Positions 1,581 through 4,548 of a stretch of DNA of 35,486 nucleotides are shown piece by piece (positions within the stretch are counted from its first letter, which is position 1; every line of letters starts with the position of its first letter). The position numbers were made by a program, and so were the translations under genes. A model generated the notes under the pieces. That model saw nothing but the letters and a program-made list of their open reading frames with translations. It did no database searches and was not told where the DNA came from. The stretch comes from Bacillota bacterium (lineage in GTDB: Bacteria; Bacillota; Dethiobacteria; DTU022; UBA8154): the NCBI GenBank assembly GCA_029778075.1, contig JAKORA010000171.1, positions 1-35,486 of the forward strand. Direction: 5' to 3'.

Positions 1581-1832
1581 ATGGTGCGTATAAGCGATTT
1601 GCGCGATCGGGATGTCATCAACGTTAATGACGGGAAAAGACTGGGCATTATCAACGATATTGATCTTGATATAGAGAACGGAAAGATTAAAGCTATCGTC
1701 CTGCCGGGACCGGGAGGCTTTATGGGCGTACTTGGCAGGAAAAATGATCTTATTATTCCCTGGGAAAAAATAAGAAAGATTGGGGTGGATACCATACTGG
1801 TGGATTATCCGGTGGAGTCCAATCTGGCCTAA
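1581..1832 (+). CDS. YlmC/YmxH family PRC-barrel (sporulation-associated) protein
   Basis: MVRISDLRDRDVINVNDGKRLGIINDIDLDIENGKIKAIVLPG... typical of YlmC/YmxH; SD aaggagg. Confidence 0.88.
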   Translation: MVRISDLRDRDVINVNDGKRLGIINDIDLDIENGKIKAIVLPGPGGFMGVLGRKNDLIIPWEKIRKIGVDTILVDYPVESNLA

Positions 1833-1886
1833 AGGTGAAGTGGCGGAAACGAAGAATTTTTTTCCGGGGGCAGAAAGGGTGGTTCT

Positions 1887-3728
1887 TTGGCGACCGATTT
1901 TTTCCCTTTTGAGGAAATCAGGAAAAGGGATGGGAGGGTTGTACCCTTCGATGCTGAAAAGATCACCCAGGCCATTTTTAAAGCCGCCAGGGCTGTAGGA
2001 GGGGAGAATTATTCCCTGGCCCGCGAGCTGACCACAGAGGTAATCGTTTACCTCAGCGAACAGAAGCTGTCCGGATTAATTCCTACGGTTGAAGAAATTC
2101 AGGATGCCGTAGAGAAAGTACTGATTGAAAAAGGACATGCCCGCACGGCGAAGGCCTATATTTTGTACCGGGCGAAAAGGACCCGTATCAGAGAAGCCAA
2201 GTCGGAGCTTATGGATGCGGTTAAAGAAATTTTACTGGAGGGGAATCGCAAGGAAGAGGAAGCCAGCTTTTCACCTGCCGAGAAGATGAACCGGATAGCG
2301 CTGGCCGCCAGCCAAAAATATTACCTTGACAATTTGCTCCCGCCGGAGATAGCTGCTGCTCATCAGGAGGGGAGTTTTTATATACATGGTCTGGGTTACT
2401 ACAGCAAAGCACTTGATTCGCTGCAAATCGATTTACAGCCTCTGCTTAGAAATGAGTTTGCTTCGGAGGAATTTCCTCCCGGAGATCTGCTGGCCGCTCT
2501 CCTCAGGATTTCTGCCATTTTACAGAAAAACAAAGACGATCTTTACGGTGAACAGGCTTTGCCTTATTTTGACCGTGTTGTTGGCCAGCTAATCCGAAGT
2601 ATTAAAAATAAACCGTCCAGGAAAGAGCTTTACAGGAACTTAAAAGAGATATTGGCGTATTGGGGGAAACTTTTCTGCACTTCAGCAGGAAATACTCCGC
2701 ATTGCAGCCTGCAACTGGGGCTTGATACTACTGAAGAGGGCAGGGAAATAGCAAGGGTTTTACTGGAGGAAAGTATAAAACGGCAGTGCCCCAAATTAGT
2801 GTTCATAATTAAAGAAGGAGTCAACCTGCGGGAAGGGGATCCCAATTACGATTTATACCAAACTGCACTGCGGGCAGCACTGCGCAGTGGGAATCCTTTT
2901 TTTGCTTTTCTGGATACCGACTATAACATCCCTTTTGGCGAAGAAGTTTGCTATTTCAGCAATGGGATGAGGATAGCCGGAAACAGGCATGGTCTCCCGG
3001 GAGGGATGAGACGAGGTAACATTGCTTCTTTGACCCTGAACCTGCCGCGCCTGGCACTGATTTCCCTGGAGCAGGAACTGTTTTTTGTAGAACTCGATCG
3101 CCTGTTGAGACTGGGAGTACGTCAACTCCTGCATCGTTTTGAAGTTCTTTCTTCTCTCAAATGCAAAGATCTCCCCTTTTTGATGGGCGAGAGACTTTAC
3201 CTGGGGAGTGAAAACCTGTCGTCGGAGGACAGCATTAAGGAATCCCTTAAAAACGGCATAATTTCCATAGGTTTTACCGGTTTGTCCGAAGCAGCCCGGG
3301 TTTTAACCGAAAGAAATCAGGAAAAGGAACTGGAATACGGGCTGGCTGTAAAAATAGCTGAACACATGTCCAGGCGTATTAAGTCCTTTGCCGACGAATA
3401 TGACCTTAATATTGTCCTTTGCGGTTCATCAGGCAGCGGCAGGTTGCAAGATCTCGTCGCTAAAGACCGGCAGGATTTTGGTTTGGTCAGAGGAGTAACG
3501 GATAAAGATTATTATTACAGTTCTTGTTTCGTTCTTTTTCAGGAAGACGAAGGCCTGGAAAAAAAGATTGCTCTGGAAGGAGAAATACATAGATGCTGCT
3601 CTGCCGGGTATGCTTCCAGGATGGTCTTGCTTCCGGGAATGGATGTGGAGGTGGCGGAGGAGATGGCCGCCAAGTTAATCGCGGCGGGGGTCGGTTTTAT
3701 TACTATAGCACCTTTAACGAAGGAGTAA
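1887..3728 (+). CDS. ATP-cone plus NrdD-like protein (anaerobic ribonucleotide reductase homologue, apparently lacking the glycyl-radical domain)
   Basis: N-terminal ATP-cone (IRKRDGRVVPFDAEKITQAIFKAARAVGG...VEEIQDAVEKVLIEKGHARTAKAYILYRAKR); NrdD-like RGNIASLTLNLPRLAL, IGFTGLSEAARVLT, VTDKDYYYSSCF, CSAGYASRMVLL. The protein ends at GVGFITIAPLTKE. Confidence 0.85.
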   Translation: MATDFFPFEEIRKRDGRVVPFDAEKITQAIFKAARAVGGENYSLARELTTEVIVYLSEQKLSGLIPTVEEIQDAVEKVLIEKGHARTAKAYILYRAKRTRIREAKSELMDAVKEILLEGNRKEEEASFSPAEKMNRIALAASQKYYLDNLLPPEIAAAHQEGSFYIHGLGYYSKALDSLQIDLQPLLRNEFASEEFPPGDLLAALLRISAILQKNKDDLYGEQALPYFDRVVGQLIRSIKNKPSRKELYRNLKEILAYWGKLFCTSAGNTPHCSLQLGLDTTEEGREIARVLLEESIKRQCPKLVFIIKEGVNLREGDPNYDLYQTALRAALRSGNPFFAFLDTDYNIPFGEEVCYFSNGMRIAGNRHGLPGGMRRGNIASLTLNLPRLALISLEQELFFVELDRLLRLGVRQLLHRFEVLSSLKCKDLPFLMGERLYLGSENLSSEDSIKESLKNGIISIGFTGLSEAARVLTERNQEKELEYGLAVKIAEHMSRRIKSFADEYDLNIVLCGSSGSGRLQDLVAKDRQDFGLVRGVTDKDYYYSSCFVLFQEDEGLEKKIALEGEIHRCCSAGYASRMVLLPGMDVEVAEEMAAKLIAAGVGFITIAPLTKE

Positions 3729-3732
3729 ACAG

Positions 3733-4548
3733 ATGAAGGAAAGCCCGGCTTTAATCGAAAAAGACGGAATAACCTTTTTTTTATATCCACGGTGGGAGAA
3801 GGAGGGCCTGGTGGGGCATGGTTTCTCCACCCGTCTCGGCGGACTGAGCCGGGGGGTATTTGCTTCCCTTAACCTGGGGTTGAAAGGAGGGGACAGCCCT
3901 GAAACTGTCGGTAAAAACCGGCAGAGATTTCTGGGAATCTGGGGAAAAGAAGAGAAGGATCTTTATTATGGAGAGCAGGTTCACGGTAAAGAAGTCTTTC
4001 TGGTAGACAGATTATTTTTAAGCAAAGGCACTAGAGAAATTCCGGGAACGGACGCCCTGATTACATCTGAACCGCAGGTTTTGCTGGGGGCTTTTTCTGC
4101 GGACTGTCTGCTGGCTTTTTTCCTGGATCCCGGAACGCCGGCCATCGGTGTGGCGCATGCAGGGTGGCGGGGCACATTTTCCGGTATCCTGTCCGGTGTG
4201 GTGGAGGCGATGAACAAATCATTCGGCAGTGAGCCGGGTTCCCTGGAGGTTTTAATGTCCCCTTCCATTGGACCCTGTTGTTACGAGGTTGGAGAGGATG
4301 TCATGGATATTGCTGCTGCTTCCCGCTGGGGCCGTGAAGCAGTTTTTTATCCGGGGAGAAGACCGGGACACCGTTTCCTGGATTTGCAAAAAACCAACAG
4401 TAATATCCTTTGTAAAGTGGGAGTCTGCCCTTTTAATATCATTACAAACGAATTTTGCACATGTTGCCGCCCCGATCTTTTTTACTCCTACCGGGGCGCT
4501 AAAAGAGGGGCAACTGGAAGTCATATGGGTATAATTTTTCTAAGGTGA
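3733..4548 (+). CDS. pgeF: PgeF/YfiH-type laccase-domain protein (purine nucleoside phosphorylase / peptidoglycan editing factor family)
   Basis: GFSTRLGGLSRG, ADCLLAFFLDPGTPAIGVAHAGWRGT, SPSIGPCCYEVGEDV, CTCCRPDLFYSYR. Confidence 0.93.
   Translation: MKESPALIEKDGITFFLYPRWEKEGLVGHGFSTRLGGLSRGVFASLNLGLKGGDSPETVGKNRQRFLGIWGKEEKDLYYGEQVHGKEVFLVDRLFLSKGTREIPGTDALITSEPQVLLGAFSADCLLAFFLDPGTPAIGVAHAGWRGTFSGILSGVVEAMNKSFGSEPGSLEVLMSPSIGPCCYEVGEDVMDIAAASRWGREAVFYPGRRPGHRFLDLQKTNSNILCKVGVCPFNIITNEFCTCCRPDLFYSYRGAKRGATGSHMGIIFLR

Follow-up and report, generated by a model that had tools for sequence, protein, structure and literature searches.

The short nrdD homologue that lies between ylmC and pgeF in the window (the whole 35,486-nt stretch of DNA analysed here) is strongly supported by sequence comparison as a conserved pseudoenzyme of class III RNR, the oxygen-sensitive anaerobic ribonucleotide reductase that supplies precursors for DNA synthesis, because its catalytic parts are missing, the gene shows purifying selection, and intact nrdD, nrdG2 and nrdJ are encoded separately in the same family (f1). 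As to what the protein does, our judgement tilts slightly in favour of a pseudoenzyme, descended from the lineage's own class III RNR, that would sense ATP/dATP through its cone and regulate dNTP supply. The features on which the analysis turns are collected in Table 1.

Table 1. Coordinates of the short nrdD, its parts and its flanks in the window, with the comparable loci of family f62
Feature	Positions	Strand	Remarks
ylmC (PRC-barrel protein)	1581..1832	+	conserved upstream flank of the ancestral nrdR-nrdD-nrdG operon
54-nt gap	1833..1886	.	site of nrdR in G068 (same genus) and in sister families
Short NrdD homologue, predicted catalytically dead	1887..3728	+	613 aa; TTG start preceded by GGGTGGTTCT
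ATP-cone	1917..2183	+	residues 11-99; most constrained part of the short NrdD
NrdD-type alpha/beta barrel remnant	2265..3710	+	residues 127-608
Former HxHD substrate-triphosphate motif, now YIHG	2379..2390	+	
Ser178 at the position of the second catalytic Cys (PcNrdD Cys171, T4 Cys79)	2418..2420	+	
Former cysteine loop YMGCRTR, now CYFSNGMR	2949..2972	+	Asn359 (2961-2963) at the thiyl-Cys position
Stop codon TAA (3726-3728) and 4-nt spacer	3726..3732	+	place of the Zn/glycyl-radical domain and nrdG in sister families
pgeF (ylmD-type)	3733..4548	+	conserved downstream flank
Dead NrdD loci of family f62	L086:2942-4795, L087:2860-4698, L088:2104-3966, L089		

Domain content and predicted fold

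The preliminary description of this DNA, made from the sequence alone, had read the protein as an ATP-cone followed by NrdD-like segments, and Pfam bears this out with an ATP-cone (PF03477, residues 11-99, 87 bits) ahead of an NrdD domain (PF13597, residues 127-608, profile positions 6-505 of 562, 240 bits). The cone carries the conserved KRDGR...K residues. These were the only domains found in the window protein, with no sign of the Zn-ribbon DNA-binding domain of NrdR. Both curated NrdD models were failed, TIGR02487 with 233.8 bits against a cut-off of 326.35 and NF005497 with 433.5 against 764. Modelling of the fold, proposed earlier as a check, gave an AlphaFold2 structure (pLDDT 85) whose best Foldseek matches were the NrdDs of Prevotella copri, S. 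thermophilus and T4; 8p2c was the best by E-value, and 8p2s matched with a TM-score of 0.78 by target length and an rmsd of 3.6 Å. An NrdD-type barrel with an N-terminal ATP-cone is thus present in the window protein according to both Pfam and AlphaFold/Foldseek.

Loss of the catalytic parts

Residue roles were taken from the structure of P. copri NrdD (PcNrdD; PMC11226230), and 18 short forms were compared with 13 intact NrdDs. Around the cysteine loop the alignment with 50%-identical intact relatives is ungapped (YMGCRTRV against YFSNGMRI) and places Asn359 of the window protein at the position of the thiyl-radical Cys (PcNrdD Cys416, at the tip of the barrel loop), where no short form has a Cys. 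The preliminary description had suggested Met in place of this residue; its central point, the missing Cys, holds, but on this alignment we replaced Met with Asn359, since Met361, two positions downstream, is matched with the Thr of the intact relatives. The second catalytic Cys (PcNrdD Cys171, in the first strand) has become Ser178, with Ser in 18/18 short forms; the NxN flap is gone from the short forms, which have variable residues at 123-125 instead; the HxHD motif has lost its Asp in the short forms and reads YIHG in the window protein; and the TPAEG substrate-phosphate loop is lost, positions 514-518 being variable in the short forms. A lack of the Zn/glycyl-radical C-terminus had also been claimed, correctly for the window protein and equally for its relatives: the Zn cysteines and the RRITGYLS radical loop are absent from all short forms aligned, the missing domain measuring about 65-95 aa in sister families. 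With all catalytic elements missing or not conserved in every short form aligned (18-19 sequences), loss of catalysis appears firm, and the pseudoenzyme proposed in the preliminary description has gained strong support from these losses together with purifying selection.

A few positions of the former active site have changed and are now conserved as they stand. Every short form has Ser178, Gly360 and Gly373, and nearly all have Asp177; because these positions have been re-fixed, the pocket may not be wholly idle. Asn378, the equivalent of PcNrdD Asn435, is nearly always kept. The T4 Gln114 specificity-site residues are not conserved in this NrdD subfamily and are therefore not informative.

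Retention, selection and start codon

Family f1 was represented by 23 genomes, including 11 of high quality, and 22 of the 23 (10 genera, all 11 high-quality genomes among them) contained the short form, three of these 22 copies being fragments or lying at contig ends. Recurrence on this scale rules out an assembly frameshift or truncation, and with it the earlier concern that the truncation might be unique to this assembly. The 19 listed copies of about 610 codons are free of internal stops, and whole-gene dN/dS (NG86), another comparison that had been proposed at the outset, is mostly 0.06-0.15 among the short forms. The short NrdD is, as judged from this pattern, under purifying selection, and both an assembly error and a recent pseudogene are excluded. 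TTG stands at the homologous start in 19/19 short forms (L012-L030), mostly behind a GGTGA-like ribosome site; intact homologues begin with ATG, GTG or TTG, and the adjoining ylmC, where its start is readable, mostly with ATG. Low expression of the short NrdD is a possible reading of the TTG start.

Constraint on the cone and on the barrel

The median ratio of cone to core divergence was 0.38 for the short forms, compared with 0.93 for intact syntenic NrdDs and 1.25 for the other NrdD of family f1. Among residues invariant in the intact enzymes, the short forms keep 41 of 46 in the cone versus 64 of 182 (35%) in the core, a difference with a Fisher p of about 2e-11 that is to be taken as indicative, the sites not being independent of phylogeny. 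K13, R14, D15, G16, R17 and K25 are invariant in 18/18 short forms, as is R102; D15, R17 and R102 are the counterparts of PcNrdD Asp9, Arg11 and Arg91, which make cone-cone contacts (PMC11226230). Judged by these comparisons, constraint has moved to the ATP-cone.

Locus and descent

Sister families have the intact gene order ylmC-nrdR-nrdD-nrdG-pgeF, with a full-length NrdD of about 680-720 aa that is 48-54% identical to the short form, and family f1 has ylmC-(nrdR)-short nrdD-pgeF. In the tree, the short forms make up a single clade (100/99) that is clearly distinct from the other NrdD of family f1. On the basis of synteny and the tree, the short nrdD is evidently a descendant of the nrdD of this operon. 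The cell-division/sporulation neighbourhood seen by the preliminary description is therefore incidental, the gene occupying what is the nrdR-nrdD-nrdG site in sister families. Two of its other observations at the locus were accurate: the TAA does end 4 nt before the pgeF ATG (at 3733), and nrdG is not adjacent, being gone from the short-nrdD locus throughout family f1.

Other parts of the old operon have been lost more unevenly. No nrdR was found in the gap upstream of the short nrdD or elsewhere in the window's assembly, and it lies directly upstream of the short nrdD in G068, G058, G053, G049, G059 and G060. What is left of nrdR in G061 is a short fragment next to the dead NrdD that corresponds to the C-terminal portion of NrdR (L025:1176-1460). 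Most other family f1 genomes lack nrdR as well; it is absent from 6 of 11 high-quality family f1 genomes, compared with 1 of 47 among the other families of the class, and its loss at the locus takes at least 4-5 changes on the tree. Adjacency to pgeF has been lost about three times on the tree, with L016, L022 and L026 keeping a short nrdD that pgeF does not adjoin. The dead nrdD has outlived its neighbours.

Several intact sister-family nrdD frames reach about 1200 aa (e.g. L011:3565-7245) because some 500 aa are inserted in frame between the counterparts of residues 256 and 267; these inserts, absent from the short forms, are probably inteins. Frames of about 900-1100 aa for the other intact nrdD of family f1 in L063, L064, L058 and L061 likewise suggest inteins.

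Working reductases and NrdR boxes

A search for a separate full-length nrdDG had been proposed, and intact nrdD, nrdG2 and nrdJ proved to be encoded separately in family f1. Its genomes encode another NrdD, which passes TIGR02487, carries an ATP-cone of its own and, in the one member run against Pfam, a complete NRDD domain; NrdG2 scores above the cut-off in 20 of the 23 genomes, and class II NrdJ occurs in most. No ATP-cone was found in the N-termini of two NrdJ proteins scanned, nor by eye in the other sampled ones. The window's own assembly is 87% complete; a contig end truncates its intact NrdD, and NrdG2 was not found there above the cut-off. G067, a 97%-identical relative of the window genome, has NrdG2.

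NrdR boxes were sought with a consensus of our own as two sites 31-33 nt apart, at a strict and a relaxed setting. Under the strict setting, 11 of the 19 intact loci have paired boxes immediately ahead of nrdR, with 0 expected from shuffles, and the remaining 8 have pairs at the relaxed setting (the shuffles were run for the strict setting only). Strict pairs were found in none of the 19 short-form loci, the 4 dead loci of family f62, the 15 loci of family f1's other nrdD or the 15 nrdJ upstream regions of family f1; two active genes examined in family f62 carry boxes. The one relaxed match among the short-form loci (L020) is likely due to chance. NrdR boxes have apparently been lost from RNR promoters throughout family f1, even with nrdR still present (L012-L030, L046-L062, L103-L117).

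A second group of dead NrdDs

Four genomes of family f62, in the same phylum, have a dead NrdD of about 615 aa directly behind nrdR, one of the four being interrupted by masked bases. The cone is intact, the cysteine loop has changed to FLASG(C/T)R, the Zn ribbon is vestigial and the radical loop broken; the ratio of cone to core divergence is 0.17 (three sequences), and one genome of the family (G158) encodes a complete NrdD/NrdG pair elsewhere. These sequences, which form a long branch of biased composition, join the short forms of family f1 (99/93) in a tree that includes that family's intact NrdD, and fall between short and intact forms in a tree without that clade. A placement as sister to family f62's own active NrdD plus the Pelotomaculum NrdD was rejected (p-AU 0.0015). 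Given the length and composition of this branch, a clearly independent second origin is not established, and the sequences are compatible with either one origin and transfer or two origins. Among the matches listed for 399 sampled genomes of the phylum, no third case appeared.

Discussion

We consider an ATP/dATP-sensing regulator to be probably the role of the short NrdD, with nucleotide binding, the partner and the direction of effect being elements that we infer. In the ancestor of family f1, the NrdD/NrdG pair of the operon would have been replaced by a separate NrdD with NrdG2, plus class II NrdJ, and the old nrdD would have lost its radical machinery yet been retained. Its cone may bind ATP or dATP and thereby change association with itself or with a partner, as cones do in intact NrdD, the dead barrel acting as a scaffold for the dimer or partner. 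The target would be an active RNR, either the intact NrdD of the family or NrdJ with its apparently cone-free N-terminus, and dNTP supply would be tuned where the control of RNR genes by NrdR has broken down. Such a sensor step is mechanistically reasonable because ATP-cones control the oligomeric state of intact NrdD (PMC11226230) and because regulation of an RNR can come from an ATP-cone that is not on its catalytic subunit (PMC5794259). Cone conservation could also reflect folding or interaction without nucleotide binding, and an intact NrdD with its own cone does not obviously need one in trans, which counts against the sensor. A more far-reaching proposal, unlikely as a whole, is that a complete class III RNR was turned into a trans-acting ATP/dATP sensor for the remaining reductases, notably NrdJ, replacing NrdR, with a similar conversion, once with transfer or twice, in the second family.

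Two other accounts of why the gene was kept seem rather improbable to us, and to a similar degree. The dead NrdD might signal nucleotide state to NrdR through cone-cone contacts, its retention having begun in linkage with nrdR, as the adjoining nrdR in six family f1 genomes and in all four f62 genomes would suggest, and where nrdR adjoins in G068, G058, G053 and G049 a role with NrdR is equally compatible with the data; yet nrdR was lost repeatedly while the dead NrdD stayed, the window genome is itself without it, and the dead operons have no NrdR boxes. The re-fixed residues of the former active site, which are not a random set, would fit a remodelled pocket with a new non-radical function (ligand binding or other chemistry) regulated by the cone, but the barrel evolves faster than the cone, retains little over a third of the intact-invariant residues, and has no new conserved catalytic cluster that we recognised.

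Less probable again is a function tied to PgeF or to cell-envelope/division genes: the 4-nt spacing and the common ylmC-dead nrdD-pgeF order point that way, but the neighbourhood is that of the old operon, and three loci keep the gene apart from pgeF. That the gene is a slowly decaying, functionless remnant is very improbable; although the catalytic parts and nrdG are gone and linked genes are being lost, its frames are open and its dN/dS low, constraint on its cone is as strong as in active enzymes, and nearly every genome of the family keeps it. Glycyl-radical domains can act in trans in another enzyme family, as YfiD/GrcA does with pyruvate formate-lyase, and the short NrdD might by analogy be half of a split class III RNR. 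We rejected this scarcely credible option, since the protein also lacks the two catalytic cysteines and the substrate motifs, and since no separate gene for such a glycyl-radical domain, a possibility raised in the preliminary description, was found in the 23 genomes of family f1.

The dead NrdD represents a natural experiment that separates allosteric sensing from radical chemistry, and opens to direct testing both the abilities of an ATP-cone that has no catalytic core and the question of whether control of dNTPs can pass from NrdR to a dead enzyme. There is a practical side as well: dead NrdDs exceed the Pfam NRDD cut-off and could pass as working anaerobic RNRs in metagenome annotation. 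RNR pseudoenzymes have been described in betaherpesviruses (PMC5469499), and in the open-access literature we found no description of a class III or bacterial RNR pseudoenzyme or of a truncated NrdD.

Compared with class III NrdD of the ATP-cone form (P. copri, PDB 8p23), the short NrdD has the same cone, barrel fold and descent, and is about 50% identical to the intact NrdDs of sister families, but it is without the thiyl Cys, its partner Cys, the NxN flap, the conserved phosphate loop, the Zn site, the radical Gly and a linked NrdG. Similar to NrdR, it has an ATP-cone as nucleotide sensor and comes from the same ancestral operon, while lacking the Zn-ribbon DNA-binding domain. NrdB with its own ATP-cone (PMC5794259) is a precedent for an RNR-regulating cone that is not on the catalytic subunit, although there the cone sits on an active radical-generating subunit and here on a dead catalytic one. 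Like the inactive R1 homologues of betaherpesviruses (HCMV UL45, MCMV M45; PMC5469499), the short NrdD is a homologue of an RNR large subunit that has lost catalysis and is probably kept for another role; those proteins are class I, viral and act on host signalling, whereas the short NrdD is class III and bacterial, with a constrained ATP-cone.
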